From contig JALMGJ010000003.1 of the NCBI GenBank assembly GCA_023362775.1, positions 75,749,355 to 75,813,354 on the forward strand: a stretch of DNA of 64,000 nucleotides, written 5' to 3'. Origin of the DNA: Charina bottae. Taxonomy: Eukaryota > Chordata > Lepidosauria > Squamata > Charinaidae. The position numbers and the translations under genes were made by a program. The notes below the pieces were generated by a model that was given only the letters and a program-made list of their open reading frames with translations, was not told where the DNA came from and searched no databases. This document shows, piece by piece, positions 753 to 64,000 of the stretch (positions are counted from its first letter, which is position 1; each line of letters opens with the position of its first letter).

Positions 753-936
753 TGCCAATAGAAGAGAATATATGTAGCTCAGGGTTGAACTGTGGGAGTC
801 CTTGGTGCTCTCTGAGCTTGGTTGCTTGCTTGCTTGCAGACGTTTCATTACCCAGCTAGGTAACATCATCAGGCACATCAGGTAATGAAACGTCTGCAAG
901 CAAACAACCAAGCTCAGAGAGCACCAAGGACTCCAC
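753..936 (-). mobile_element. Penelope-like foldback, family 1, copy A
   Basis: The left arm (minus orientation) and a shorter right arm are inverted copies that share GGTAATGAAACGTCTGCAAGC and the following region down to GGACTCC. The outer left part (about 756-792) is the single-copy extension, with no partner on the right. A near-perfect 10-bp TSD flanks it: AGTTTTAAGA at 743-752 and AGTTTTGAGA at 937-946. The junction between the arms (about 873-880) has cut off the 5' side of the hammerhead. Assignment to Penelope-like elements is inferred from this layout. Confidence 0.7.
827..872 (-). ncRNA. Hammerhead ribozyme motif (copy A, 5' stem I lost)
   Basis: Read on the minus strand: CTGATGA (872-866), a stem II hairpin TTACC / GGTAA around a TAGCTG loop, GAAAC, then GTC followed by TGCAAGC. 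All core residues are present and stem III is only two pairs (A-U, C-G). The strand 5' of CTGATGA runs straight into the inverted arm, so stem I cannot form as in the copy near 60.46 kb. Confidence 0.65.
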
Positions 937-14931: not shown

Positions 14932-15589
14932 ATGGATCAGTACAACCAAAGATATGTCGGTATACCATCGGAAGATGGGACTCCCAGGTCGGAAGATGGT
15001 CAAAATGCTACTGGGGAGGAACAGAGGATACGTTCAACTAGCCCCAGATGTGATGACGCAGCTAGCTCAAAGCCGAAAGGACGGCTAGCGGCCGACGGTG
15101 CTGGTGGTGAACGACGAATCCGATGTTCTAAAGATCAACACACCATAGGAACCTGGAATGTAAGATCTATGAGCCAGGGCAAATTGGATGTGGTTATTGG
15201 TGAGATGTCAAGATTAAATATAGACATTTTAGGTGTCAGTGAACTGAAATGGACTGGAATGGGCCACTTCACATCAGATGACCACCAGATCTACTACTGT
15301 GGACAAGAGGACCACAGAAGAAATGGAGTAGCCTTCATAATTAATAATAAAGTGGCTAAAGCAGTGCTTGGATACAATCCAAAAAACGATAGAATGATCT
15401 CAATTCGAATTCAGGGTAAGCCATTTAACATCACAGTGATCCAAATATACTCGCCAACCACAGATGCTGAAGAAGCAGAAGTAGATCAGTTCTATGAGGA
15501 TCTGCAGCACCTACTAGATAATACACCAAAAAGAGATGTTATTTTCATTACAGGAGACTGGAATGCTAAGTCAGACGACACCTGGAATT
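14932..15589 (+). pseudogene. BovB ORF, APE endonuclease part (frameshifted)
   Basis: This encodes the N-terminal apurinic-type endonuclease that nicks target DNA for reverse transcription. Visible motifs are GTWNVRSM (about residue 73), the catalytic-Glu region VSELKW (about 101), QIYSPTTDAEE (about 170) and GDWNAKS (about 208). Just after GDWNAKSDD the frame is lost: the next expected residues, PGITGK, are read in the +1 frame near 15576. That means a 1-base insertion or 2-base deletion around 15565-15580. The open frame runs on to 15621 but its last residues are out of register. The ATG at 14932 is the first in frame; a second short frame from 14894 may be the vestigial upstream ORF of RTE elements. 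Confidence 0.85.
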
Positions 15590-17962
15590 ACAGGCAAGCA
15601 TGGTCTGGGAGAACAAAATGAAGCAGGACATAGGCTGATAGAATTTTGCCAAGACAACTCACTGTGCATAACAAACACTCTCTTCCAACAACCTAAAAGT
15701 CGACTTTATACATGGACTTCACCAGATGGTCGACACCGAAATCAGATTGACTACATCCTTTGCAGCCAAAGGTGGCGGACATCTATACAGTCGGTAAAAA
15801 CAAGACCTGGAGCTGACTGTAGTTCAGATCACGAACTTCTTATTGCAAAATTTAGAATCAGACTAAAGAGAATAGGGAAGACCCACAGATCAGTTAGATA
15901 TGAGCTCACTAATATTCCTAAGGAATATGCAGTGGAGGTGAAGAATAGATTTAAGGGACTAGATTTAGTAGATAGGGTCCCGGAAGAACTATGGACAGAA
16001 GTTCGCAACATTGTTCAGGACGCGGCAACAAAAAACGTCCCAAAGAAAAAGAAAAAGAAAACCAAGAAGGCAAGATGGCTGTCTGCTGAAACACTGGAAG
16101 TAGCCCAAGAAAGAAGGAAAGCAAAAGGCAACAGTGATAGGGGGAGATATGCCCAATTAAATGCAAAATTCCAGAGGTTAGCCAGAAGAGATAAAGAATT
16201 ATTTTTAAACAAGCAATGTGCGGAAGTGGAAGAAGACAATAGAATAGGAAGGACAAGAGACCTCTTCCAGAAAATTAGAAACATCGGAGGTAAATTCCAG
16301 GCAAAAATGGGTATGATCAAAAACAAAGATGGTAAGGACCTAACAGAAGCAGAAGAGATCAAGAAAAGGTGGCAAGAATATACGGAAGATCTGTATAGGA
16401 AGGATAATAATATTGGAGATAGTTTTGACGGTGTGGTCAGTGAGTTAGAGCCAGACATCCTGAAGAGTGAGGTTGAATGGGCCTTAAGAAGCATTGCTAA
16501 TAACAAGGCAGCAGGAGACGACGGTATCCCAGCTGAACTGTTTAAAATCTTGCAAGATGATGCTGTCAAGGTGATGCATGCCATATGCCAGCAAATTTGG
16601 AAAACACAAGAATGGCCATCAGATTGGAAAAAATCAACTTATATCCCCATACCAAAAAAGGGAAGCACTAAAGAATGTTCAAACTATCGAACAGTGGCAC
16701 TTATTTCACATGCCAGTAAGGTAATGCTCAAGATCTTGCAAGGTAGACTCCAGCAATTCATGGAGCAAGAATTGCCAGATGTACAAGCTGGGTTTAGAAA
16801 AGGCAGAGGAACTAGAGACCAAATTGCCAATATCCGCTGGATAATGGAGAAAGCCAGGGAATTTCAGAAAAACATCTATTTCTGTTTTATTGACTATTCT
16901 AAAGCCTTTGACTGTGTGGATCATAACAAATTGTGGCAAGTTCTTGGTGGTATGGGGATACCAAGTCATCTTGTCTGCCTCCTGAGGAATCTGTATAACG
17001 ACCAAGTAGCAACGGTAAGAACAGAGCATGGAACAACGGACTGGTTTAAGATTGGGAAAGGAGTACGGCAGGGCTGTATACTCTCACCCTACCTATTCAA
17101 CCTGTACGCAGAACACATCATGCGACATGCTGGGCTTGAGGAATCCAAGGCTGGAGTTAAAATTGCTGGAAGAAACATTAACAATCTCAGATATGCAGAT
17201 GATACCACTTTGATGGCTGAAAGCGAGGAGGAATTGAGGAGCCTTATGACGAAGGTGAAAGAAGAAAGTGCAAAAGCTGGGTTGCAGTTAAACCTCAAAA
17301 AAACCAAGATTATGGCAACGAGCTTGATTGATGACTGGCAAATAGAGGGAGAAAAAGTGGAGGCAGTGACAGACTTTGTATTTCTAGGCGCAAAGATTAC
17401 TGCAGACGCTGACTGCAGCCAGGAAATCAGAAGACGTCTACTTCTTGGGAGGAGAGCAATGGCAAATCTTGATAAAATAGTTAAGAGCAGAGACATCACA
17501 CTGACAACAAAGGTCCGCATAGTTAAAGCAATGGTATTCCCTGTAGTAACCTATGGCTGTGAGAGCTGGACCATAAGGAAGGCTGAGCGAAGGAAGATAG
17601 ATGCTTTTGAACTGTGGTGTTGGAGGAAAATTCTGAGAGTGCCTTGGACTGCAAGAAGATCAAACCAGTCCATCCTCCAGGAAATAAAGCCAGACTGCTC
17701 ACTTGAGGGAATGATATTAAAGGCAAAACTCAAGTACTTGGGCCACATAATGAGAAGACAGGATACCTTGGAGAAGAAGCTGATGCAAGGGAAAGTGGAA
17801 GGCAAAAGGAAGAGGGGCCGACCAAGGGCAAGATGGATGGATGATATGCTGGAGGTGACAGACTCAACCATTGGGGAGCTGGGGATGGTGACGGCCGACA
17901 GAAAGCTCTGGCGTGGACTGGTCCATGAAGTCACGAAGAGTCGGAAACGACTGAACGAATAA
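15576..17962 (+). pseudogene. BovB ORF, endonuclease end and reverse transcriptase
   Basis: The open frame spans 15536-17962 (808 codons); homology begins at PGITGK. It completes the endonuclease (RNQIDYIL, then SDHELLIAKF near codon 96, containing the catalytic Asp-His). A basic linker (PKKKKKKTKK) follows, then the RT with IPIPKKGS, AGFRKGRGTRDQ, FIDYSKAFDCVDH (about 451), GVRQGCILSPYLFNLY and the catalytic LRYADDTTLM (Asp-Asp near 552). The C-terminal domain has YGCESWTIRKAERRK, FELWCWRKILRVPW and the end VTKSRKRLNE. No stop interrupts the RT. Without repair of the upstream shift the endonuclease and RT cannot be made as one protein. Confidence 0.92.
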
Positions 17963-27991: not shown

Positions 27992-28810
27992 AGCAAACAC
28001 AAAGTGGTAACTTTTACTATCCAAACATAATTTCCACATCATAGTTGGGCACACTATAATCTCTTAGCATAGTGAAGGGCTGCACTGGTTTCTGATGGTC
28101 CACAGAGCAGAACGGAAACCTCTGGGTGGAGACTGTAGGGAAGCAGATTACAGCTAAATATAAACCTCCTAACAGCAAGAGCAGACTCTCCTTCACTGGA
28201 AGGTTTGGAGCAAACATGGACTTACAAACTGCTAAGATTACTGTGCATTACTGTAATGTAGAATCGGAGTTGAGCAGGAGGCTGGGTTGGATGCCCTTTT
28301 TAATGCATCTAGCTTGATACCGGCAGTTATACAATGTATTAATAGAACTATTCCACGGATATCCCTAGTATCAATTTACACATTTTTTGTTACAAATTGT
28401 TGTGGCTATATAACCACAATGATTGATGAGTCCAGAGCCTTGCTTTTGTTTGCCTTTCTTGATTCATGTGCTGTAGCCTCTTTAAGTAAACTTTAAGGAA
28501 TAACTTATTTAATATAAGGCTTTGCGAGGACTTTTGATATAGATGAGCACATATTCATTCCTAGGAGCTTGCAACTATGTGTATGTATATATGTATGCAT
28601 GAGCCTCTGCTTAAATTGAGGATGTTGTATAATCCGAGTTTTGCTCTTCTCTTCATTTTCTTCTTAAATACAGGAAGGCCACTCAGATGTTCAGAGGAAG
28701 GTTGAAGAATAACTACTAGTAAGTAAATCAACAAAATATGTTTTGTTTACTGGTCAGCTACTGATGCTTGTATATAATAAGTAGTTTTTACAATGGGATG
28801 GATAAAGGAA
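27992..28810. other. No recognised feature
   Basis: Unique-looking sequence between the pentanucleotide repeat and the copia element. CTGCACTGGTTTCTGATGG (about 28081) could be an old LINE fragment. Confidence 0.35.
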
Positions 28811-29297: not shown

Positions 29298-29437
29298 GAA
29301 GCACAGAGAGACCAGCTCAGCAGCTTGCTTGCATCTGACAACAAGTAAACAAGGCAAGTGGTGTTTTTTGTCTGGGGCTTCTAGCAGCTATCTGTTTGCA
29401 GAAAATATAAGCTGAGGTGATAGTGAAGAAAGGAGCC

Positions 29438-29805
29438 ATGGCTACTTATCAGTTCTCAGGAATGCCGCTCGAACGTTTATCAGAAACTAACTACATAAAC
29501 TGGAGTTTAAAAATGGAAATGTTCCTTCGGAGGGAAGATTTATGGACTCCGATAGGTGAACCAACTCCAGTGAATCCCAGCAATGCATGGCTCAGACAAG
29601 ATGAACGTGCCAGAGCGTCCATTATTTTGGGAGTTGAAGACAATCAGCTAGTGAATGTGCGTGGCTTGCAGTCTGAAAAACAAGTTTGGGAGGTACTGAG
29701 AGATTTGTATGTAAAAGCAACAGCAGGAAGTAAGGTCTCCCTGACTAGAAAACTTTATAAAGCTTTTTTGTCAGAAAAGGGCAGTCTGCCTGAACATTTA
29801 CACTC
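29438..29805 (+). pseudogene. Copia gag, first part
   Basis: The ATG at 29438 (context GAGCCATGG) starts a copia-type Gag: NYINWSLKMEMFLRRED, WLRQDERARASIILGV and KQVWEVLRDLYV are the conserved N-terminal capsid-like motifs. The frame is interrupted after LPEHLHS by the LTR insertion at 29806 and continues at 30392. The same frame upstream to 29417 lacks a good start. Confidence 0.85.
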
Positions 29806-30387
29806 TGTTGGGGTTTGTATAATACCCAGAATTTACAGCTAGATTAATTAGACAGGTGAGAGGCATTAAGTTCTGCAAGTCATTCTATCAGCAGCTATTG
29901 TTGAAGAATGATGAAAGAAGTGACTCATACCACAGCTGATATAGTTTAAGCTGGGTGTGGTAGATAATGAATTTGACCTATAATGTGATTGGTCAATTTA
30001 AGTATATAAGCAGAGGAGCTCTGGTGTTCATTCTTCTCTCGTTACTATTTTCATTATCATCTGTATCTGTTGGATGTTATTGGACTGTGTATTGACTGCA
30101 TATGTATATAGAGTAAATAGACTATTTTATCTAATCTCTTGTGAGTGTCTGCTTACTCAATAGAACGTATTACTCTGAGGTCTAGAAGGAACATTGGCAG
30201 CCCCAGCGCTGTATACTCTGACAGGTTACGGACCCAGCAGTGGAACGTGTCCAGTTGGGACTCTAACAGGTCACTGGCACAGCTGTGTGGACGTTGCAGC
30301 CTATACAGGAGTCGTGTGGCTATCTGGGACGTATTACTCTGAGGTCTGGAAGGAACATTGGCAGCCCCAGCGCTGTATACTCTGACA
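29806..30387 (+). mobile_element. Collapsed second copia-like LTR element inside gag
   Basis: A 418-bp LTR (29806-30223; TGTTGGGGTTTG...CTCTGACA) is followed by a primer-site-like sequence, about 90 bp of leader, and then the last 59 bp of the LTR again (30329-30387; one mismatch to 30165-30223). The whole internal region and most of the second LTR are deleted. A 4-bp duplication ACTC flanks it (29802-29805 and 30388-30391). Insertion plus duplication is 586 bp, which accounts exactly for the shift of the host gag frame. A TATA-like TATATAAG lies at about 30003. Confidence 0.88.
30224..30237 (+). promoter_or_regulatory. Primer-binding site of the nested LTR element
   Basis: GGTTACGGACCCAG follows the nested LTR directly. 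It matches the initiator tRNA-Met anticodon-arm complement (GGTTATGGGCCCAG) at 12 of 14 positions, suggesting the same priming mode with some decay. Confidence 0.7.
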
Positions 30388-30391
30388 ACTC

Positions 30392-30706
30392 CATACAGCA
30401 GCTGTTTGTAGAATTGCAAGAGAGAGGTATGGAGTTTGCACCTCTAACAAAAGCATACATTATTTTATCTTCACTGAATGAAATGTGGGAAATGTTAATT
30501 TGCACCCTGGAAGCAATGCTGGAGGCTACTCTTTTGTATGTTTCTGGATGGCTGCTTGCTGAGTGGGAGAAGCGACAGGAATGGCACTCGTCTCCACCCA
30601 TTTCTTCTGATAAGGTACAGCATCAAAATGCGAGGGAAGGGAAGGGCAATCAGGCTGAGGCAACAGCTCTAGCCAGCCGCCAAAGTTTTAATTGTGGCTC
30701 AGCTGG
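30392..30706 (+). pseudogene. Copia gag, second part with damaged zinc knuckle
   Basis: The frame resumes with QQLFVELQERGMEF, AYIILSSLNEMWEM and LLAEWEKRQEW, a typical copia Gag middle. It leads into FNCGSAG, the start of a CX2CX4HX4C nucleocapsid knuckle. The first Cys appears replaced by Ser (QSFNCG). The SINE at 30707 cuts the knuckle immediately after this point. Confidence 0.8.
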
Positions 30707-31051
30707 TAAAAGGTAAAGGTAAATGTTCCCCCTGCACATTTGTGCAGTCGTGTCCGACTCTAGGGGCCGGTGCTCATTTCCGTTTGTTAGCTGAAGAGCC
30801 AGCGTTGTCCAAAGACACTTCCATGGTCATGTGGCCGCATGACACGCACGGAACGCTGTTACCTACCCACTGAAGTGGTACCTATTAATCTACTTGCATT
30901 TGCATGCTTTCAAATTGCTAGGTTGGCAAGAGCTGGGGTGAGTGCGGGAGCTCACTCCGTCACGTGGGGCTAGGGATTTGAACCTCCAAACTTGCAATCT
31001 TCTGATCGACAAGCCTGGCGTCTTACCCACTGAGCCACCACGCCCCATCCA
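30707..31051 (-). repeat. tRNA-derived SINE (family 2) in copia zinc knuckle
   Basis: Same family as 2994-3323. It has an exact 10-bp TSD GCTCAGCTGG (30697-30706 and 31052-31061). Read on the minus strand it has a tRNA-like head GGGGCGTGGTGGCTCAGTGG and a BovB-like tail GAGTCGGACACGACTG. Insertion plus TSD is 355 bp, matching the frame change of gag-pol across it. Confidence 0.92.
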
Positions 31052-31061
31052 GCTCAGCTGG

Positions 31062-32338
31062 ACATTTACAGAAAAACTGTAATTTATTGCCCAAAGATTG
31101 AAAGACAGGAAAAAAGAACAAAGAGGCAATGCGAAAGAAGGCTCTGCAAACAACCCATATTGCACAGGTTCATGAAAAATATGATTCTGATTTCTGGGTG
31201 TTAGATTCTGGTGCTAATTGCCATTTATCAAATTGTAAAAGTTCTTTTGTTTCACTGTATAAAACTAATAGACAAAGTGTTTCTATGGCTGATGGGTCTA
31301 CAATAGAAATCATGGGTCAAGTTGACATGTATCTACCTTGTTTGGGAGAAATTGTTAAAGGTGTGCTGTTTGTTCCTAAATTACAAACAAACCTTTTATC
31401 TGTAGCCCAATTAGTAGCAGCTGGATATGTCATATCATTTAAGAAAGATAGTTGTGACATATGTAAGAATGGTAAGCTGTGTGCAAATTGTGTACAAAGA
31501 GATTCATTGTACATAGTACAGAACGCTAAAGGCCAAGCTACAAAAGCTGTAATTGGCAATATTCCAATTCATGATCAGTGCATACACTTAATACATAGGA
31601 GATTTGGTCATGCAAATTTCAGATACATAGCACAAATGCCACAGATATGTGCTGACCTGAAGTTGAAACCTTGTGATAAATATCTGGACTGTGTAGTTTG
31701 CAAAGAATGCAAAACACAGAAGCCTTCTGTGAGTAAACACAGAGACAGAGTTACAACTAGACCTCTTGAAATTGTTCATTCTGACATTATTGGTCCTTTT
31801 GCTCCACGTTTGGGACAAGCAAGATTCATAATGACCATAATTGATGATTTTTCAGGATATACATTTATCTATCTGTTGAAACATAAAGATGAGGCATTTG
31901 ATAAATTTAAAAGTTTCGTAACATGGGCAAACAGAAAATTTCCAAAGCCTGGGTCTGCCCTACAACGTGATTGTGGAGGGGAATTTCTTTCTAATGCTTT
32001 TAGAAAATTCCTAACAGAGAAGGGGATAGAACAAATTCTTTCTAACCCTTACACTCCTCAGCAAAATGGAGTTGCTGAAAGGAAAGGTAGAATGCTTCAA
32101 GAAGCTATGATGTGCTTGCTTAAAGATGCAAAATTACTTTTTAAGTTTTGGGGTGAAGCAGTATCAACTGCCTGTTATGTTCAGAATAGACTGTTTAATT
32201 GTGTGACTGAGGATACTCCATTTCATTTGTTTTATGGTATGAAACCAAAAGTGAACCATCTCAGAGTTTTTGGCAGTGCTGCATGGGTTCATGTGCCAAA
32301 ACAACAGAGGAAAAAAGGAGGTTCCAAAACAAAGAAAG
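31062..32338 (+). pseudogene. Copia pol: knuckle end, protease and integrase
   Basis: It opens with HLQKNC, completing the zinc knuckle, then hits a TGA at 31099. The long open part starts at about 31129. The protease active site is VLDSGANCHLS (about residue 25 of that frame). The pre-integrase HHCC zinc finger is HRRFGH and CVVCKECK. The integrase DDE residues lie in VHSDIIGPF (about 218), QRDCGGEF (about 280) and NGVAERKG (about 316), followed by VFGSAAWVHVP. It ends where the foldback inserted, in the conserved KKAIFVG motif. Role: polyprotein cleavage and insertion of cDNA. Confidence 0.93.
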
Positions 32339-32387
32339 CAATTTTTGTTGGCTGTAGCTTGAATCATGTCAACTGGATTTCTATTTT

Positions 32388-32436
32388 CTCAGTGGAAACG
32401 TTTCGCTCCTTATCCAAGGAGCTTCTTCAGTCTGAG
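32388..32436 (-). ncRNA. Hammerhead ribozyme motif (copy B, left arm)
   Basis: Minus strand: CTCAG-A, CTGAAGA, stem II GCTCCTT-GGAT-AAGGAGC (7 bp), GAAAC, GTT, then CTGAG closing stem I. All invariant core positions are present. Confidence 0.72.
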
Positions 32437-32596
32437 CAAAGTTAGTAAGGGAATCCTAAATATGTTTCTAGGTAGCTGTGTGACCTTACACCTGGGGCTA
32501 GGTCATGGTTATGACCTTACACTGGTCATACCTAGCTCCAGGTGTAAGGTCACACAGCTACCTAGAAACATATTTAGGATTCCCTTACTAACTTTG

Positions 32597-32645
32597 CTCA
32601 GACTGAAGAAGCTCCTTGGATAAGGAGCGAAACGTTTCCACTGAG
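32597..32645 (+). ncRNA. Hammerhead ribozyme motif (copy B, right arm)
   Basis: CTCAG (32597-32601) pairs with CTGAG (32641-32645) as outer stem I. CTGAAGA is at 32603-32609. Stem II is GCTCCTT / AAGGAGC with a GGAT loop. GAAAC is at 32629-32633, and GTT at 32634-32636 gives a two-pair stem III and a predicted cleavage after 32636. GUU is a permitted but usually slower cleavage triplet. Confidence 0.75.
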
Positions 32646-32729
32646 AAAATAGAAATCCAGTTGACATGATTCAAGCTACAGACAATTCCACCTGGATGAC
32701 TGAGAAACTTCATAGACAATTTTTGTTGG

Positions 32730-33543
32730 GTATGAACAAAGCCAAAGAAGATACAGGTTCATGTTAGGCGATAAATTAATAATTAGCAAAAGTGCTTCAT
32801 TTGCAGAACAAAACTGGGGAAAAATAAATTCCAGTTCACAAGTTAATTTGAAACCAGAGCAAAGGCAAGAACCTGCTGATAACATTTTGAAAGATTTCTC
32901 GCCAAATGAGTTCATTAAACAAGAGGAGCAAGCTGTAAATCTGTCTGAGACAGATGCTACTCAGGAAAGTGAGGAAAGACAGAATATTAACCCTGTTAGC
33001 CCTGTAATATGTCACAGATCGCAGAGGAGTAATAAAGGAATTCCTCCTCAACATTTTGAGGTGGATATGGTTAAAGCTTTCCACGTTTACTCTGAACCAG
33101 AGTCTTTACAGCAGATAAATGATATGCCACCTGAGATTGCAAAATGCTGGTATGATGCAATGCAACAGGAATTAGATTCCTTGAAAGAAAATAAAACTTG
33201 GAAATTAGTTAATCTACCTCCCAATAAACATTGTCTGGGTTGTAGATGGGTCTTTAAACTAAAAAAGGATGCTAGTGGGAAAATTCAAAAATACAAAGCA
33301 AGGTTAGTTGCTAAAGGATTTTCTCAAAGAAAACAATTAGACTTTGACAAAACTTTTACACCTGTTATAAAGGGTGAATCAATCAGATTGTTGTTGAAAG
33401 TTGCTGCACTAACAGGGATGTCAGTTTATCATTATGATATTCAAACTGCATTTTTGTATGGTGAATTAGACCAGAAATTGTACATGCAACAACCACCTGG
33501 TTTTGAACAAGGTAAAAATTTAGTGTGTGAACTACAAAAATAA
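32730..33543 (+). pseudogene. Copia pol: integrase end and reverse transcriptase N-terminal half
   Basis: It continues the integrase C-terminal motif directly after the TSD, then a variable linker and the RT: WYDAMQQELDSLKENKTW, GCRWVFKLKKDASGKI, YKARLVAKGFSQR, and the first catalytic Asp in YHYDIQTAFLYGEL, up to PPGFEQG. A TAA at 33541-33543 interrupts just before IYGLKQ, where other copia elements read through. Confidence 0.92.
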
Positions 33544-33589
33544 ATTTATGGTTTGAAACAAGCAGCTCACTGCTGGAACCTAAAATTAG

Positions 33590-34639
33590 ATGAAACACTG
33601 CAGTTTTGGTTTTGAAAAAGGAAAAGCAGAGCCATGTGTTTATGTTAAGAAAGACAAACAAAGTTTTATGTATTTGTGTCTGTATGTTGATGATTTATTG
33701 CTACTTACATCATCAGATAAACAAAGACATGATTTTGAAACATACATGAAGAACAATTTTATGTTAAAGAATCTTGGCATTGTGACAAATTACTTAGGCT
33801 TGGAAATATACAGAGAAAAAGATGGTAGTTTTCTGGTAAGCCAAAGTAATAAGATCAAGAGACTCCTAGAGGAGTTTAACATGCTGGAATGTAAATCTGT
33901 CTTAACCCCTATGCTTCCTGAATTCCAGAAGGAGGTGGGAGAACTTGAGTTATCTGAGACAGATGGGTTTAGATCTGCGATTGGAAGTTTATTGTACATT
34001 GCAAATCATTCTCACCCAGATATTTCTAATGCTGTTTCAATTTTAAGCAGACAGGTAGAAAAACCCACGTCTACTGGGAAAGCAGCATTGAAAATACTGT
34101 TTAGGTATTTGCAAGGCACAAAGGATTACTGTCTGAGGCTTTCTGCTTCTGGGACAGGAGAATTAAAAGCATATGCAGATTCAGACTGGGGAGCAGACCT
34201 CAATGATCGTAAGTCAACTTCTGGAGCTATAATACAGTATGCTGGCTCAACAATTGCCTGGCATTCTAAGAAACAGACACTTGTTGCTCTTTCTACAGCA
34301 GAAGCAGAATTTTATAGCCTAGCACAAATCTGTAACGAGATTGTATGGTTTAAACAACTGTTAAAAGACATAGGCATGGAATTGCACCAGCCTGTAACTG
34401 TTTTTGAACATAATCAGGCTTGTATTCATATGGCTCAGTCTGAGGTTTGTAGGAACAGAACTAAGCATATTGACATACGATACCATCATGTCAAGGATTT
34501 AATAGCCAAAGGTGAAATTATGTTAAAGTATTGTGACTCAAAAGACATGATTGCTGATTTTCTAACAAAGCCCCTTGCTGCAGTAAAACACAAGGAGTTA
34601 ACTGAAAAAATTGGTTTGCGACTTACACTTCTAGCATAA
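33590..34639 (+). pseudogene. Copia pol: reverse transcriptase C-terminal half and RNase H
   Basis: The frame is +1 relative to the previous part, so a small indel lies near 33575-33600. RT catalytic motif LCLYVDDLLLL is at about residue 30-38. RT ends near SYLNY-type NYLGLEIY, then GSLLYIANHSHPDIS. RNase H motifs are AYADSDWGAD, TAEAEFYSL and DMIADFLTKPL, giving the Asp-Glu-Asp set. It stops normally at 34639, ten bases before the 3' LTR, with AACAGGAG as a weak polypurine tract. Confidence 0.92.
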
Positions 34640-41910: not shown

Positions 41911-42917
41911 CCAATCCATGAGCTGGATTTGCACAATATGCAAGGCCAAAATATGGTTGGCTACTTTGTCATTCAGCATATCCTGCAAACTGAAAAGTAT
42001 TTCACTGTGGTGATTAAATGGAAAGGGAAACAGGACACTTGTACCTTTAACAGCAAAATAAAAAGCTGCACTAAACTGCAACAGAATGTTGTAATATGTT
42101 CCTATTTACCAATTCTTCCCAATCAGACATGCCTTCCTCCAGAATACTCCATTCCATTCCTACCAACCTGCACTGCAACATTCCATAGCCAAAAAAGAGT
42201 CTGAGTATTTGTGGGTCTATTTCCCTTCTTCTGACTGTTGTGTCTCAAGATTATAGAACCAAAGCAGCAGCATCCCCATTTATAGTCATCATCATAGCAG
42301 GTTGAAGAAAAAAGTGAAATTCACTGCCTTATTTTACTGATCACAGTTGCTTTAAGCTGTTTCTTCCAGTAGCTGGAACTGCAAGTTGGCTGGTGGGAGG
42401 GGAGATGGTTTTAAAGTCAAACTGGACAAGTTTACCAGAAGCCCATATATCCTGTTTGGTTGTTAGGCCCCTGTTTTTATATTAGTTATCTGGAAGGAAA
42501 ACATACATAGCCAAATAGTAGAACTCCTACAGCAAGTATTTTTCCAGGAAGAAGCTACTGTAGTGATGGGATGTTTCATCTCTTGCATGTCTTTCTTGCC
42601 ATGCTTTTATTAAAGCACTGGATTTTTACCAGAATTTTACAGGCAAACCTTGCTGACATCTATTGCATTCTGTACAATTAATAAAAATATTGAAGCTCTC
42701 TCTTCCATTTTGTATCTATAGATTTTCCCTTTAAAGTGGAATTTTGCTCAGCTCTTACAACTAAATATTCAACTGTCTTCCATTGCATACAATATGTTTG
42801 GAAAAGACTCTGAAGTTGTACCATGCTAAAGTTCAGAGTCATAACATTAAATATAGAAAGGTAACCTTGGTTTTATGAATTACAGAATTATTAACCTGTG
42901 AGATATATTATCTTAAC
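41911..42917. other. No recognised feature
   Basis: AT-rich unique-looking sequence up to the truncated BovB. Confidence 0.4.
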
Positions 42918-43725
42918 AGTGGCACTTATTTCACATGCCAGTAAGGCAATGCTCAAGATCTTGCAAGGTAGACTCCAGCAATTCATGGAGCGAGAATTGC
43001 CAGAAGTACAAGCTGGGTTTAGAAAAGGGAGAGGAACTAGAGACCAAATTGCCAATATCCACTGGATAATGGAGAAAGCCAGGGAGTTTCAGAAAAACAT
43101 CTATTTCTGTTGTATTGACTATTCTAAAGCCTTTGACTGTGTGGATCATAACAAATTGTGGCAAGTTCTTGGTGGTATGGGGATACCAAGTCATCTTGCC
43201 TGCCTCCTGAGGAATCTGTATAATGACCAAGTAGCAACGGTAAGAACAGACCACGGAACAACGGACTGGTTTAAGATTGGGAAAGGAGTACGGCAGGGTT
43301 GTATATTCTCACCCTTCCTATTCAACCTGTACGCAGAACACATCATGCGACGTGCTGGGCTTGATGAATCCAAGGATGGAGTTAAAATCACTGGAAGAAA
43401 CATTAACAATCTCAGATATGCAGATGATACCACTTTGATGGCTGAAAGCGAGGAGGAGCTGAGGAGCCTTATGACAAAGGTGAAAGAAGAAAGTACAAAA
43501 GCTGGGTTGCAGTTAAACCTCCAAAAAACCAAGATTATGGCAACCAGCTTGATTGATAACTGGCAAATAGAGGGAGAAAACATGGAGGCAGTGACAGACT
43601 TTGTATTTCTAGGTGCAAAGATTACTGCAGACGCTGACTGCAGCCAGGAAATCAGAAGACGTCTACTTCTTGGGCGGAGAGCAATGACAATGATAAAACA
43701 GTTAAGAGCAGAGACATCACACTGA
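42918..43725 (+). pseudogene. BovB RT fragment, first frame
   Basis: Contains VALISHASKAMLKILQ, AGFRKGRGTRDQ, CIDYSKAFDCVDH, GVRQGCIFSPFLFNLY and the catalytic LRYADDTTLMAE. The frame is lost near 43690, where a 4-base deletion relative to the full-length copy (ATGACAATGATAAAAC versus ATGGCAAATCTTGATAAAAT) shifts it. The ATG at 42898 lies outside the element. Confidence 0.9.
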
Positions 43726-44183
43726 CAACAAAGATCCGCATAGTTAAAGCAATGGTACTCCCCGTAGTAACCTATGGCTGCGAGAGCTGGACCATAAGGA
43801 AGGCTGAGCGAAGGAAGATAGATGCTTTTGAACTGTGGTGTTGGAGGAAAATTCTGAGAGTGCCTTGGACTGCAAGAAGATCAAACCAGTCCATACTCCA
43901 GGAAATAAAGCCAGACTGCTCACTTGAGGGAATGATATTAAAGGCAAAACTGAAGTACTTTGGCCACATAATGAGAAGACAGGATACCCTGGAGAAGTTG
44001 CTGATGCTAGGGAAAGTGGAAGGCAAAAGGAAGAGGGGCCGACCAAGGGCAAGATGGATGGATGATATTCTGGAGGTGACAGACTCGACCATGGGGGAGC
44101 TGGGGATGGTGACGGCCGACAGGAAGCTCTGGCGTGGGCTGGTCCATGAAATCACAAAGAGTTGGAAGCGACTGAACGAATAA
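43726..44183 (+). pseudogene. BovB C-terminal fragment, second frame
   Basis: Reads VTYGCESWTIRKAERRK, FELWCWRKILRVPWTARRS, FGHIMRRQDTLEK and the terminal ITKSWKRLNE in the frame that follows the 43690 deletion. Confidence 0.9.
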
Positions 44184-47790: not shown

Positions 47791-50091
47791 AACACTCCAG
47801 CAAGCCATTCAAAAATAAAAAAGGGCTCACCTAAAAAGTTTACATACTCCTGTTGTGACCTGAGAATTCCACCCCATCCCCAGCACTATTCTCCTTTAAT
47901 TAGCCTGCAAGTCCCACTTACCTACATAGTAATCTGGAGTCTTAAAACTACACGGCAAGCTCAATACTGTATATTCCTATATACAACCATATTCTTCTTC
48001 TCCTCTCTCTCAATATTTTTTTTTGTAAATCTGTAGCCTACAAAGGAATTCTACATAATTCCAAAGCTTGTTCGGTGAGCTTTGTGAACACTGGTTGATC
48101 CTCCGAGGTATTACACAGCTGTCCCTATGGTTCCTTTTCTTTAACAAATAAAATAAATCAGCACACCGCACCAGTGGCTCTTTCAGATGTACTCAGAAAT
48201 CAGAGAGAAGCAAATCTGAGCAGGTACCATATAGGAAGGACCAGTGTTTGAGAAGAAAGGTTCCTCAATCCTTATTAGCAATGCTGACCATTTAAAAAGC
48301 CTGGCCTTCAAAGGCTCCTGGGCCCCCAGTGCAGCTGCCCTGATCATTAAGGGATACAATTGGTGGTAAGATGGAACAGTGAAAACAGGACTGCACATTC
48401 CATAGGGGTTTTGTTCCAATTCAGACTGGGCTAAAGGCAAACAGGATTTTGCTCATTACTTTCCCAGCAGAAGAAAACATTTTGGTTTGCAATAAAGAAG
48501 CTGGTTAAATGGGTTCTTTATCCCCCTCCATCCCGGTTCCTATTATTGCTAGTTAATTATGCACTGGCCATCCAAGTCCCACTCATTCACCACTACAAGC
48601 AGTACAATCAGAAAAGCAGGTGTGTGGTATGACCTTTGCAGTTGGCAATGGCTCTCAGAAAGACAGCGTCTGCCGAAGGAGCTCCGACGGCCTTTCTAGG
48701 GCACTCTTGTTAGAAGGAAATCTCAGATATCCTACACAGAAGTATGATGACTATTAACTTGTTATGGCATGAAGCAGCTAAACATTATGGCTCTCGTGGC
48801 TGTGTTCATTCAACAAATATAGTAACATACCAGACAATAAGTTGAGTAGGTTATGAATATGTTAACCATGGATAAGTATGTTGTGTAGACAGAGCCATGG
48901 TGATGTTTTCTGTGCAGTGCAGAGATAAACATTATCACCTGCTTACTCCTGGATTTCAAAGGCACAGCTACAAAAACTGATAGGTAATCTTATACTATGC
49001 CAACTTTCCCAGGTTTTGCACATTATACTCCCAAATAAATATCTCACCTAATATGGCCACTTCAAAACCTATGAAGAAGAGCCTGTAATTGCTGGCTAGC
49101 TGTTCTCTCCACGCTTCGTTAGCTATTGTACCAGCTCTTTTAAGGCATTCCATTTTGCTTAAAACATTTATTATGAGAGTCTACTAGATAAGGGAGGGTT
49201 TGGAACCTATATTTGAAAGGCAGTGCTTTTTTCTTTCTTTCTTTCTTTGGAAACATCTCACATGCATTAAGCTGCACCTTGCACCTTTTAAGTAGTCTTC
49301 CTTTCATCTCTGAATGGAGAGAAGCAGCTCAGAAAAAGGAAAGAAATGATCTCTAGTCTTCTGTACATTCTCTTGCTGCGTGGTCTGTCATATTCATCCA
49401 AAATAAATGTGGATGGTTTCTTTTTAAGAGAAGAAGGAAAAGTTCAGGAATCTGTATTTCACATAGCTCTGCTGGAGGTGCCCAAGAGAGTGGATTATTC
49501 CTTTGTGTAACCCATGGCTTTTAGCCCTACATGAATTATGAAAACCAATCACATAGGAATAAAAAGCCATAGACCACAGCAGAGGACTTAAGAAGGATAA
49601 GCTGAAAGTCTCTAGAAAATAGAAAAGGAATGGAAATAAAGCTTCCAAACTGGGGCCACCTTGACCAGATCTCCAATGTGCCACAGAGGTTTCCCTGGAA
49701 ATTTTCTCTCGGCTGGTCATGTCCTTAGTAATTCATCCACTTTGATTGTTTCCAGCACAGCCTGGGCTCATCTCTAATGAAATTTGCTTCGCCTGTTTGT
49801 GCTCAGCCTGGGAAATAAGCTTTTAGTGGCCCCATCCTGTTTCCTACAGGAAGGCAGGTCTTAGAACGAAGACTGATAAATGCCATACAGTTCACAATTC
49901 TGTTACTTTGCACTGATTGTCTGAGCAAATGGAGTCATATACTGCATAATCCACAGGCCATGCAAAAGCATCTAGTCCTTCTTGGCTTAAATTAAAGGAC
50001 TCAGCATAACAGGCTGGCAGCAAGACATTGGGCAAAATGTAATTTTGAGAACTTCCAAAAATAAAGATGCATTTCCTGCTCTCCTGAAAAC
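47791..50091. other. No recognised gene
   Basis: Contains a short (CTTT)n at 49229-49250. No frame carries a recognisable domain. Confidence 0.4.
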
Positions 50092-50175
50092 CATCTGAGA
50101 CTTGTCTATGAAGGTTCTCAGTCATCCAGGTGGAACTGTCTGTAGCTTGAATCATGTCAACTGGATTTCTATTTT

Positions 50176-50225
50176 CTCAGTGGAAACGTTTCGCTCCTTA
50201 TCCAAGAAGCTTCTTCAGTCTGAGC
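50176..50225 (-). ncRNA. Hammerhead ribozyme motif (copy C, left arm)
   Basis: Minus strand CTGAAGA, stem II GCTTCTT-GGAT-AAGGAGC (one C-to-T change kept as a G-U pair), GAAAC, GTT, with CTCAG/CTGAG stem I. Confidence 0.68.
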
Positions 50226-50402
50226 AAAGTTTGTAAGGGAATCCTTAAATATGTTTCTAGGGTAGCTGTGGGACCTTGCACCTGGGGCTAGGTCATGGTT
50301 ATATTGAGATGTTTATTTCTAAGTCCCTTTATCATCCGAAGGAGGATCGTTAAGATTACCTTGCAACAACAGCAATATTTAAGGATTCCCTTACTAACTT
50401 TG

Positions 50403-50451
50403 CTCAGACTGAAGAAGCTCCTTGGATAAGGAGCGAAACGTTTCCACTGAG
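50403..50451 (+). ncRNA. Hammerhead ribozyme motif (copy C, right arm)
   Basis: CTCAG (50403-50407), CTGAAGA, GCTCCTT-GGAT-AAGGAGC, GAAAC, GTT and CTGAG (50447-50451): the same as copy B's right arm. Confidence 0.75.
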
Positions 50452-50501
50452 AAAATAGAAATCCAGTTGACATGATTCAAGCTACAGACATCTGAGACTT
50501 G

Positions 50502-59900: not shown

Positions 59901-60133
59901 ATGATAAATAGTAACAAACATCAGAAGTAAAACAAATAAAACATTTAAAACATAATTAAAATTCAGAAATATTTAAAAATGCATATTAAAGCACACTTAA
60001 GGGTAAACCCTATTGTTGGGATGGTGGCAGTTATAATCCAGCACATATGGAGGGCATCAGGTTGTGGAACATTGCTCCTAAAAATCTGCTCCCACTCACA
60101 GTAACCAATGCTGAGCTCAGTAAATCTGATATC
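56934..60133. other. No recognised gene
   Basis: Includes a (CAG)5 run at 57666-57681 and GC-balanced sequence at 57600-58750. Open frames at 57585-57849 and 58492-58749 have no family I recognise and no supporting exon signals. Confidence 0.35.
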
Positions 60134-60217
60134 CATATATAAGGTATCAATCGAAGAGAATATTTGTAGCTCAGGGTTGAACTGTGGAGTCCATGGTGCT
60201 CTCTGAGCCTTGTTGTT

Positions 60218-60267
60218 TTCTTGCAGACGTTTCATTGCCAGGCTAGGCAATATCTTCAGTGCGAAAA
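60218..60267 (-). ncRNA. Hammerhead ribozyme motif (copy D, left arm)
   Basis: Minus strand: TTTTCGCA, CTGAAGA, stem II TTGCC / GGCAA, GAAAC, GTC, TGCAAGAA. Stem I pairs at seven of eight positions (one C-A mismatch). Predicted cleavage is between 60226 and 60225. Confidence 0.78.
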
Positions 60268-60426
60268 GGGAGTGGAACTTGCTCTCTGTTTATATACCCT
60301 GGCTTGCCCTGCCTGTGTTGGTGGGGGTGTTGTACTCTCCTTGGTAGTACTTTGGGTAGTACAACCCAATCAAAGTACTACCAAGGAGAGTACAACACCC
60401 CCACCAACACAGGCAGGGCAAGCCAG

Positions 60427-60438
60427 GGTATATAAACA
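60427..60438 (+). promoter_or_regulatory. TATA-like box in foldback arm
   Basis: GGTATATAAACA, mirrored in the left arm. It lies 28 bp before the hammerhead in this orientation and is a plausible start signal for a pseudo-LTR transcript. Confidence 0.5.
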
Positions 60439-60457
60439 GAGAGCAAGTCCCACTCCC

Positions 60458-60507
60458 TTTTTGCACTGAAGATGTTGCCTAGCCTGGCAATGAAACGTCT
60501 GCAAGAA
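60458..60507 (+). ncRNA. Hammerhead ribozyme motif (copy D, right arm; best example)
   Basis: TTTTTGCA (60458-60465) pairs fully with TGCAAGAA (60500-60507) as an 8-bp stem I (one G-U). CTGAAGA is at 60466-60472. Stem II TTGCC / GGCAA closes a TAGCCT loop. GAAAC is at 60492-60496. GTC at 60497-60499 forms a two-pair stem III with the preceding AC, and cleavage is predicted after 60499. All invariant hammerhead residues are present. Such a short stem III usually works best as a dimer. Confidence 0.82.
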
Positions 60508-60554
60508 AACAACAAGGCTCAGAGAGTACCATGGACTCCACATATATAAGGTAT

Positions 60555-62180
60555 ATTCATAAGAGAACTTTTGCACAAATTTGACTTCTATTCCAACTGA
60601 ACCATGCTAAAAAATCACCATTTTTCAAACCTCACCACCTTACCAGAAATAAAACAGTTGTGCTAAACTTAATTAGGGCACTTTCAAAGTAGACATAATT
60701 AATAAATTACTCTTAAAATCCCTATGGACTTCCTTAGTTGGAACCTATCAAGCCCAGCCAGCAGAACTGATGATCAGAATAATTAAAGGTATAATCCCAG
60801 AGCATCTGCAGGACCATAGTTTCCCTACCTCTGCCATAAGGGACTGATGCTCCAATCCTATGGAGACTTACATGGGTATAAATCCCACTGATCTATGACT
60901 TACTTCCTAGTAATCCTGTACCGAATTGCTCTGTAAGTATTATGTCCTAGTGGGTGCTTAGAAGATACAATGAACGTGCTCAAGACTTCTTTTGCAGAAT
61001 AGAGTAGGAGAGGAGTAATAACATGAGACAGGAAATAACAGGTTATTTGATGAGGTCAAGAACAGCTGCTGCAATGTGTAGCCTTAGCAAGGCAAATCTA
61101 ACCTAAGGCACTGCTGTTCTTTAAAAAATGCAGTGTATGTATCTGGGTTATATCATCAATACCAAATTCTGTGAATAACTGGATCAAACTGCTTTTCGTG
61201 AAGAGCATAGATCAAAGTTAAGAACAAGCTTTCCCCATTCCACTGCCTGCCTGGATAGTTCTTCATGGTTCAGTAGGGTAAAACAGACTCTTAAATAAAC
61301 GTGAATGCTGACAGCACTTGTAGTGTAACCCCCAGATACTTTCTCAGAAGCAGGCCCCATTAAGTTCAGTGAGGCATACTCTCAAGTTGCAGCCACAACC
61401 CCCTGATTTTAATTCATACCGAAAACTGAAAGTAGCAATAACTAGGATATTTAACTGCAAATACCATACACTGAAACCTTCCCAAGGAATTTTCTTGCCT
61501 ACTGTTACCTCCAACCTTGCCTGGATTTACATGAAACCAATGAACCATTTGTTTTAAGTGTAGATTCATCACTTTAAAAAAAAGCATTATCCTTGAATTA
61601 CAGCACTACTTTTTAAAGATGCAAAGAGTGAAATAATTTTAGCAAGTTTTGTCACAACTAGGAAAGAAGGAAGGTCAGCTAAATTGTTGGTATTTGTGTA
61701 AAACTGCCCCTCTCCACCCCCTTCCCATAGGCATTAAAAAGAAATCATTTTCTCGGTTTCACCTACCTATACTAGACTGGCTGCAGAGTTGGAAAGAACA
61801 TTTGTCAGATTCACCAATCCCAGAATGCCCAACGATATTCATTTGTTTGTTTGTCCTAAAATGGTAACATTGACCAATCTTTCCATCCACTTCTACTGTA
61901 AGTCAAAGGAAGCCTGCTAAAATTGACAAAGCTTTTTAGTTTCATCAGGCTTCTCCAGACTTGCTGCTCAGAGGGAAGAAAATACTGAGGTAGTTTGAAA
62001 AGAGAAAGTGGGTAGTAAAGCAAGTCAAGTGTTAATAGATCTGTAGAATGCTGTTTTCAATTTTAAAGGGACATCTTCCCTTCACTGGGAATGATAGCTA
62101 ACACATAATTGCAAGTGGACTGACTAATATGCAATGGTCAGTGAACAAGGGTGGAATTAGCTTTTGTTAGTGGACTGGAC
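60555..62180. other. No recognised feature
   Basis: AT-rich unique-looking DNA. Confidence 0.4.
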
Positions 62181-62193
62181 CTGATTCAAACTA

Positions 62194-62297
62194 ATCGAAG
62201 AGAATATTTGTAGCTCAGGGTTGAACTGTGGAGTCCTTGGTGCTCTCTGAGCCTTGTTGTTTTCTTGCAGACGTTTCACTGCCAGGCTAGGCAACAT
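62194..62297 (-). mobile_element. Penelope-like element, family 1, copy E (single arm, 104 bp)
   Basis: Only the 3' end is present: the extension AATCGAAGAGAATATTTG, then the pseudo-LTR end back into stem II of the hammerhead (GAAACGTC intact; the CTGAAGA core missing). A 13-bp TSD with one mismatch flanks it (CTGATTCAAACTA 62181-62193; CTGATTCAGACTA 62298-62310). The lack of a second arm shows that the inverted arm is not obligatory for insertion. Confidence 0.85.
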
Positions 62298-62310: not shown

Positions 62311-63710
62311 CCATACTTGAGCAGCAACAATCCAGATGACTACTAGATGGCATCAAACAGATACAGACATCTCTGGTGGTAGCCCTAGACAATGGATACT
62401 TCCGCACAGTATTTTAAATTTGGAAAGGGTGGAACACTGGAGAAGAAACCAACTTATGAAACACGCATAGGGGGGTTGTATAATGAGATATTTATCCAAG
62501 ACACATCTACTTCCCCTTCTCTCAACTCATATGGCCCTTTCCACAAAAGCAACATGCAGCTCTCGGCCACAAAACAAAAGTTCCACCCCCTAGCTTGAAG
62601 CAGAACCAAAACAAGAAGAGAAGACCAGATCTTTAGAATATGATAACTCAAGATGGAACTCCACCTGACCCCATCACATAGTCCAGCTTCCATAAAGTTT
62701 AGTCTACCTTAGAATTTTGCATCTTTATTCTGCTGTTCCTGCCAATTTTGTCACACCTATCCAGGGGAAAAAATTACTTTAGGGAAGGAACAGTTGGTAA
62801 TAGGTGGCTGAAGCCTCCCATCATTACAGGAGGGGCTCTTCTCAGAACATTGTTCTACTCCAAGCCCCATGATCCCTGGCCAGCAAGTGTCATTAGTAAC
62901 TGAGGACCATCCATGTGGACTTTTATGTTGAAGAAAATGTTCATTACTACCTCCCCCTGCACTAAAGTAGACTGGGGAAAATGAAGGGGGAAACAGATAG
63001 ATATTAGGCTTTTGATGTGTTCAAGCGGAATGCTTAGAACACTTCAAGGCTTTCCTGCAAGCATTCAACTTGAACATTTAAAGAGCTTGATTCATTTTCA
63101 GGATAAATCAGAGAGCCTGTATATCCCTAATCAAAATAGCAGCACAAAAACTCAAGCAGATGTATTTGGCAGAAAATGAAATGAATGGCATTGGGAATGG
63201 TGGAAAAAAGTGTGTTGTCCAAATTAAAAAAAAATAAAATCCATGTCTGAAGAGCATGGATTTACTTCAGCTGTAGCATTTTTTTTTTCAAAACATGATT
63301 TCCATTCTTTCCTCCTAATATGTGTGTGTGAATTAAATAAAAGGAGCAGAAAGGCCTTTACGAATGTTCTGAATATCCACCCCAAAGTGCACTCAAAAGT
63401 CTTGCTGGGTCACCACAGGAGATTATAATTAAGTTAGTTCAGTTTTTGTTTGGCAACTGGGTAAGATTGTTCCAATAATGTAAAATAGCATGAAAATCAG
63501 GAGAACTGGCAACTCTGCATTTTTACAATTTGCTATTATTGTTATAATTTGCTATAATCTACTATTTTGATTGTTTCGAGTCTGGGATTGTGCTTTGCTA
63601 TCAGGATGAATTAAATATGTCACCTTTTATGGGATTCCCCCCTCCCACATTATTTTAGCTTTTAGAAAAGTATGTAGCATATCATTTATCTTGTTTTATA
63701 CATTGTAAAT
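62311..63710. other. No recognised feature
   Basis: Unique-looking AT-rich sequence. Confidence 0.4.
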
Positions 63711-64000
63711 TGTGGAGTCCTTGGTGCTCTCTGAGCCTTGTTGTTTTCTTGCAGACATTTCATTGCCAGGCTAGGCAACATCTTCAGTGCGAAAAGCGAG
63801 TGGGACTTGCTCTTTGTTTATATACCCTGGCTTGTCCTGCCTGTGTTGGTGGGGGTGTTGTACTCTCTTTAGTAGTACCTTGATTGGGCTGTTGTTTGCT
63901 GCTTGGTTGATTGACTGAGTTAATAGTTCCTTGATTAAGGTATATTGTGCTGCTTGATTGTTCCTCTGGTGCTAATCCTGGTGTTAATCTTTGCATATGT
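63711..64000 (-). mobile_element. Penelope-like element, family 1, copy F (cut by window edge)
   Basis: It begins at the fixed arm boundary TGTGGAGTCC without the extension. It follows copy D's left arm through the hammerhead, TATA-like box (TTTATATACCC) and CAGGCAGG region, then goes past copy D's centre into new sequence (from about 63890). A minus-strand frame of 70 codons is open from the window edge and may be leader sequence. The element continues beyond 64000. Confidence 0.8.
63745..63795 (-). ncRNA. Hammerhead ribozyme motif (copy F)
   Basis: Minus strand: CTGAAGA, stem II TTGCC / GGCAA, GAAAT instead of GAAAC, GTC, TGCAAGAA. The C-to-T change keeps a U-G pair in stem III, so the core residues proper are intact. 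Confidence 0.65.

Follow-up and report, generated by a model that had tools for sequence, protein, structure and literature searches.

The locus raises the question of what a hammerhead-like motif at positions 60458–60507 of a 64,000-nt stretch of the Charina bottae genome (hereafter the window) represents, and what it does inside the inverted insertion that carries it. Re-reading of the sequence confirmed the position and the invariant core bases that an earlier note, made from the sequence alone, had given: CUGANGA, GAA, U16.1 and H17 are all present, and the cut is predicted after C60499, in a GUC site read from the sequence (Table 1). The 8-bp stem I, hairpin stem II and loopless AC/GU described there also stood, but U60473 had gone unmentioned; this extra base after A9 and the G.U closing pair of stem II are the departures from the textbook core. 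Stem II did not directly follow A9 in the window, with one extra base in 7/7 instances in a scan that permitted 0 or 1 base at this place. AC/GU provides two pairs at most and no loop, hence no closed stem III in cis, so that the motif was kept apart from the canonical type I hammerheads. Its core, its stems and its location in a pseudo-LTR of a Penelope-like element (PLE) instead place it in the minimal type I class known from PLEs, as the earlier note had proposed; the motif is a real but ordinary copy of this kind.

Minimal PLE hammerheads in pseudo-LTRs were reportedly described by Cervera and De la Pena in 2014, and Lunse et al. are said, by the title of their 2017 paper, to have observed dimer cleavage of PLE hammerheads. 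The motif resembles such hammerheads in being of type I without a stem III loop and in lying in pseudo-LTRs. A viroid hammerhead with an extra nucleotide after A9 was reportedly described by De la Pena and Flores in 2001; the likeness is in the extra core base, and the comparison is with a plant viroid and by title only. In the available parts of the PLE literature, minimal hammerheads lacking helix III are reported (PMC6155905, PMC7761336) and their role is called unknown (PMC7761336).

Table 1. Coordinates of the hammerhead, its surroundings and related insertions in the window.
Feature	Position	Strand	Remarks
Minimal type I hammerhead	60458-60507	+	intact core, stems I and II, loopless AC/GU
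Hammerhead stem I	60458-60465/60500-60507	+	8 bp, unbroken
Hammerhead CUGAAGA, C3-A9	60466-60472	+	
UGA of core, stop of upstream PLE ORF in longer copies	60467-60469	+	
AUG beginning at A9, start of next PLE ORF, MLPSLAMKRLQENNKAQR...	60472-60474	+	arrangement as in PMC11167929
Extra base U60473, between A9 and stem II	60473	+	
Hammerhead stem II, 6-nt loop	60474-60479/60486-60491	+	
GAAACGUC, 3' core part of hammerhead	60492-60499	+	
TATATAAA, candidate TATA box of pseudo-LTR	60429-60436	+	21 nt 5' of stem I; putative function
Insertion A1, two inverted PLE pseudo-LTR fragments joined head to head	60148-60540	.	14-bp target duplication; arms 98% complementary
A1 tailed arm, antisense	60183-60354	-	own core: C3 at 60259, stem I C.A mismatch, AUG to AUA
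PLE tail, 35 nt, ORF +72 to +106	60148-60182	-	A1 left arm only
Insertion A2, diverged head-to-head pair	753-936	.	core 839-872 (-); weak 10-bp target duplication
Insertion A3, truncated single tailed copy	62194-62297	-	13-bp target duplication, 1 mismatch
Copy A4, untailed pseudo-LTR running off window	63708-64000	-	stem III AC/GU to AU/GU
Insertion B1, second PLE family, in copia-like pol gene	32352-32716	.	cores 32397-32430 (-), 32603-32636 (+)
Insertion B2, second PLE family	50105-50488	.	cores 50185-50218 (-), 50409-50442 (+)

The covariance-model search suggested in the earlier note, which had named a missing hit as grounds for refutation, returned no match: the Rfam hammerhead was absent from 60130–60600 at E ≤ 10, from the whole window at the gathering score and from 20 related loci at E ≤ 1. 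Among these 20, the loci that code for a reverse transcriptase (RT) or GIY-YIG domain (L002, L010, L050 and L057) also lacked a hammerhead match, and the Rfam test is therefore blind to this class. Long hairpins gave microRNA-precursor matches below the Rfam cut-offs. Viral contigs scanned for the motif and a PDB search with the 35-residue ORF start as query both yielded 0 matches. Separately, a mir-135 precursor was found at window positions 49499–49585 on the minus strand (79.3 bits, above the Rfam gathering score).

The motif is more frequent than expected by chance. A core followed by a stem II of at least 5 bp occurred 7 times in the window versus 0 times in 60 simulated windows, and when 10,813 order-2 Markov windows were scanned in a similar way, the core turned up 93 times, once with stem II. 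The seven instances are not independent, because only four insertions, belonging to two families, supply them: A1 at 60 kb and A2 at 0.8 kb for family A, and insertions at 32 kb and 50 kb for family B. Across the 1.8-Gb assembly (278 contigs), the pattern CTGANGA-N19-GAAACGTH matched exactly at 28,565 forward and 28,884 reverse places (57,449), versus 54 + 55 (109) for the same pattern read backwards; the genome contains tens of thousands of copies. Two sets of loci were analyzed, the first (L001–L030) fetched after scoring 40 of 993 first-look candidates, and the second (L031–L060) comprising the first 30 core-pattern places, all within the first 0.8 Mb of contig C1. Distinct instances in the second set were mostly of family B (24/29), the others of family A (5/29).

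Longer copies revealed the identity of the carrier. Family B locus L050 encodes RVT_1 (38.2 bits) and GIY-YIG (26.4 bits) in one frame, both above the Pfam cut-offs, and family A locus L010 encodes RVT_1 (E 3.5e-12, 46.9 bits); GIY-YIG matches in family A were below the 22.6-bit cut-off (L002, E 9e-4, 19.9 bits; L057, E 5e-4, 20.7 bits). The family A stretch at L003 contained no Pfam domain, and no RT or endonuclease ORF was seen in the window's own copies. Because of the RT and GIY-YIG domains in longer copies, the pseudo-LTRs, the tail and the short target duplications, the carrier is classified at the sequence level as a PLE.

Insertion A1 is flanked by a 14-bp target duplication, CATATATAAGGTAT (60134–60147 and 60541–60554). 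Its arms are 98% complementary, span 172 nt each in the predicted hairpin, and join pseudo-LTR to pseudo-LTR with their ORF-side ends outward, the left ending at ORF +106 and the right at +71. These arms, the duplication and the PLE tail bear out the earlier note's view of the hammerhead as lying in an inverted-repeat retroelement insertion. Since the ends match the PLE RT starts and tail (PMC11167929, PMC3846280), A1, a dead solo head-to-head pseudo-LTR insertion, is a standard PLE product. Long inverted arms with a target duplication would also be expected of a DNA foldback transposon or MITE; however, the outer ends of A1 do not form an inverted pair, one arm exceeding the other by 35 nt. 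These ends coincide with PLE RT starts, and RT and GIY-YIG occur in longer copies, which leaves that origin with a negligible probability. Non-LTR retrozymes, described in the available part of PMC7229834 as tandem units of ~170–400 nt with full type I hammerheads, were considered and rejected: the A1 arms are inverted head to head, with no tandem repeat of the motif.

Penelope insertions of Adineta vaga, as far as the accessible text of PMC3846280 describes them, likewise consist of inverted, head-to-head pseudo-LTRs with a TATA box, an optional 31-bp tail on one of them and short target duplications (8, 9 and 10 bp). The duplications here are longer, 12–18 bp and some with 1 mismatch (A2: 10 bp, weak), and in contrast to A. 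vaga many of the inserts are short solo pairs without an ORF. Two loci have composite structures. At L054 (1459–1835), pseudo-LTRs of families A and B lie directly side by side and point the same way, as would result from nested insertion or a mixed template, and L057 (1426–2328) is a single insertion of several inverted family A pieces with a 12-bp target duplication.

Comparison of copies was used to separate decay from conservation. The other A1 arm and copy A4 read UUUUCGCA, with a C.A mismatch in stem I, and the 60458 copy has U for the C of this CpG. Among family A genome instances picked with the 60458 copy as query, UUUUCGCA occurred in 17/35 and UUUUUGCA in 15/35; among those picked by the core pattern alone, UUUUCGCA occurred in 5/5. 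On the basis of these counts, the unbroken 8-bp stem I looks derived by CpG decay, with a subfamily as the alternative. The A1 arms and copy A4 differ within the motif by three changes: one CpG decay that makes or breaks one stem I pair, a second that turns the stem III C-G into U.G, and a change of the G.U closing pair of stem II to A-U, which keeps the pair. Covariation between arms was rejected, since two of the three changes are CpG decay and the remaining one preserves its pair.

The earlier note's claim of covariation-like support within the window thus failed for the arms and survived for stem II between the families. Family A and B queries found no mutual match at E 1e-3, and a gapless alignment of their 34-nt motifs revealed all invariant core bases in common. 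In an alignment of 8 sequences (6 distinct), stem II was fully paired in all 6 distinct window sequences and in 36/36 cells between families, with both sides changed in 3/6 pairs. Its covariation score of 0.756 was reached by 0/500 shuffles (mean 0.343), and the doubly changed cells and the percentage paired were also above all 500; weaker controls were the count of doubly changed pairs, reached by 117/500, and pair types, reached by 182/500. The stem I register paired in only 64.6% of cells and is interrupted in relatives, the pair at 60458 that completes the 8 bp being formed in 1/6 distinct window sequences. In insertion A2, stem II takes a third form, distinguished from A1 by a compensatory G-C to A-U change, and position 7 is a U.

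The core overlaps coding sequence in family A. At L002, L003, L010 and L022, the stop codon of the upstream ORF is precisely the UGA of CUGA, and the same C-terminal peptide, unchanged or as a variant, was recognized by eye in the UGA frame in 38/43 contexts, all found by a short pattern which requires CTGA. Bases shared by an ORF end and the next ORF start could be conserved for the protein, with the hammerhead likeness accidental. Family B, however, keeps the core although its ORF stops 97 nt before C3 (L049, L050) and the next AUG lies downstream, at position 64 with C3 as 1, and stem II covaries between the families. A core kept whether coding or not argues against coding as the cause, and we consider an accidental likeness very unlikely.

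Analysis of insertion ends revealed two clusters of ends per family. Among 50 measured family A pieces, a few of them counted twice, 34 ended at ORF +71 to +78, 15 at +105 or +106 and 1 elsewhere; family B ends clustered at positions 79–86 and 113–115 (C3 counted as 1). With the cut as position 34 from C3, these ends lie 42–50 (mode 43) and 76–78 nt downstream of the cut in family A, and 45–52 and 79–81 nt in family B. The start codon shifts from C3+6 in family A to C3+63 in family B; the spacing from cut to RT start varies less than the start codon position does.

Wherever a target duplication was found around a head-to-head insertion, one outer end carried the tail and the other lacked it (27/27; 11 of family A and 16 of family B). 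Twelve are from the first set, biased to untailed arms by its query (L001, which is A1, L002, L008, L014, L018, L019, L020, L025, L030, A2, B1 and B2), and 15 from the core-pattern set, which is unselected for the tail but local to one contig end (L031, L035/36, L038, L040, L042, L043, L044, L045, L046/47, L049/50, L052, L056, L057, L058 and L060). A2 was retained with its weak duplication (3/200 random sites equally good), and the duplication of L057 was found only with the outer tailed end. From the first set we dropped 16 single arms (L004–L007, L010–L013, L015–L017, L022–L024, L028 and L029), L026 (the same insertion as L025), L003, L021 and L027 (the second piece forms no head-to-head outer end), and L009, which has two untailed ends without a target duplication (44/200 random sites equally good). 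Those dropped from the second set were L033, L034, L037, L048, L051 and L054/L055, whose partner was not found, and L032, L039, L041, L053 and L059, which repeat counted pairs. The single arms A3 and A4 are outside the count. A strict one-to-one count of tailed and untailed ends was not found in the parts of the PLE literature searched. This one-tail rule constrains models of PLE priming on both strands.

The closest counterpart is the anole (Anolis carolinensis) Poseidon element PAc, for which the available text of PMC11167929 gives an ORF start at stem II, a cut at +26, an RT start at +111–118, and a tail of 30–40 bp that is the stretch between two RT starts; by arithmetic from these values, the distal RT start lies 85–92 nt past the cut. 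PAc thus resembles family A in having the core at the pseudo-LTR/ORF junction, the AUG at stem II, a cut shortly inside the ORF, and a tail between two RT starts, and differs in the position of the cut (+26 versus +28 in the 60458–60507 motif). An upstream stop codon within the core is not mentioned in the main-text account of PAc as available (PMC11167929). According to the same source, the strands show no apparent difference in where RT starts in vitro; the one-tail rule accommodates this only if either strand may take either start and the two starts of one insertion differ. Minimal hammerheads in PLE pseudo-LTRs, one of them from anole, and the optional tail on one inverted pseudo-LTR are, from the parts of the literature available, already known; less familiar are the stop/start core of family A, the similar cut-to-end spacing in both families and the 27/27 count. 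These three features merit following up.

Folding predictions bear on the activity of the copy itself. The whole A1 insertion is predicted to form a single long hairpin (−362 kcal/mol) in which the hammerhead does not fold. Each strand contains one sense hammerhead, the other arm being its complement, and in either A1 transcript the ribozyme comes only after this complement. Pairing with the antisense arm would make the A1 copy most likely inert, and no activity is expected at this locus according to the folding model. The earlier note's suggestion that the foldback supplies a dimer partner did not hold up, the partner arm being antisense and pairing with the ribozyme in one hairpin. A device of two ribozymes partnering each other would agree with a core in both arms, one per strand, but any one transcript carries the second core only as antisense, the long hairpin is incompatible with the hammerhead fold, and head-to-head arms are a generic PLE product in the available text of PMC3846280; such a device is thus highly improbable.

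The motif is very probably a hammerhead of the PLE pseudo-LTR/ORF junction, preserved in a dead solo insertion. In a live element, tandem copies would yield RNAs with the cut site ~42–52 and 76–81 nt upstream of the two RT start sites, two motifs of one transcript could base-pair through ACGU into a common stem III, or the element's protein would help the fold, and the folded motif would cut after GUC. Since AC/GU is loopless and ACGU self-complementary, dimer or protein-assisted folding followed by cleavage after GUC is most likely. Monomer folds tied, at −14.3 kcal/mol for a non-hammerhead structure versus −14.2 kcal/mol with hammerhead stems; the dimer energy model is nested and cannot represent a double hammerhead. 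For PAc, the accessible part of PMC11167929 states that the RNA is not cleaved without protein, that protein aids the hammerhead fold, and that no reads beginning or ending at the cut site were found.

With tens of thousands of footprints, an accumulation of ends at the cut and a single use of each RT start per insertion become questions that can be addressed by counting. At places matching the exact anchor of family B, 355 had a non-T base at H17 and 89 at the next base. Read individually, a sample of 40 of the first 44 H17 places listed (contigs C1 and C2; close-pair partners skipped; two share one left flank) contained 33 truncated and 7 substituted copies, the former including L118, with a sense flank and an odd joint; the next-base control (first 30 of 89) contained 13 truncated and 17 substituted copies. 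Scaled, this gives estimates of 293 truncations at the cut versus 39 at the next base. Joints with microhomology of at least 2 nt to the antisense arm accounted for 15/40 at the cut versus 0/30 in the control, and their removal leaves ~160 versus 39 (scaled, two positions compared), a remainder roughly estimated at no more than about 1% of family B arms. We regard the residual excess at the cut as an unproven hint that falls short of evidence for cleavage. Few arms end at the cut, which argues against cleaved RNA as the usual template; it may be used occasionally.

This rarity, roughly estimated as near 1% of family B, is also consistent with a fold kept mainly as a landmark by which the PLE protein positions RT, cleavage being incidental or off during insertion. 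The similar cut-to-end spacing in families A and B although the start codon moves, and the normal insertion of PAc ribozyme mutants reported in the available text of PMC11167929, point the same way. A landmark, however, would not require every catalytic base to persist, yet the core is invariant across two otherwise dissimilar families, and the residual excess of ends at the cut also speaks against it; we regard a landmark role as possible but somewhat doubtful.

For PLE RNA, a joint proposal appears to us evenly balanced between right and wrong. The hammerhead, RT start 1 (~42–52 nt past the cut) and RT start 2 (~76–81 nt) would form a module of fixed geometry, nearly constant between families while the ORF start moves, and each insertion would use both RT starts, one per target strand, so that a single event primed on both strands would leave an untailed and a tailed end as its two halves. 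The family A core would further join the stop of one unit to the start codon of the following unit; cleavage of a tandem RNA would then deprive the downstream unit of its start codon, so that it could be either translated or processed but not both.

Other repeats were noted in the window. ORFs named by eye as copia-like span 29417–34639 and are broken by PLE insertion B1 at 32352–32716. Two related LINE copies, RTE/BovB-like by eye, contain endonuclease and RT-like ORFs (14932–17962 and 42898–44183), and a short palindrome around 'tctcaagcttggcaactttaagac' at 90–195 appears MITE-like by eye.
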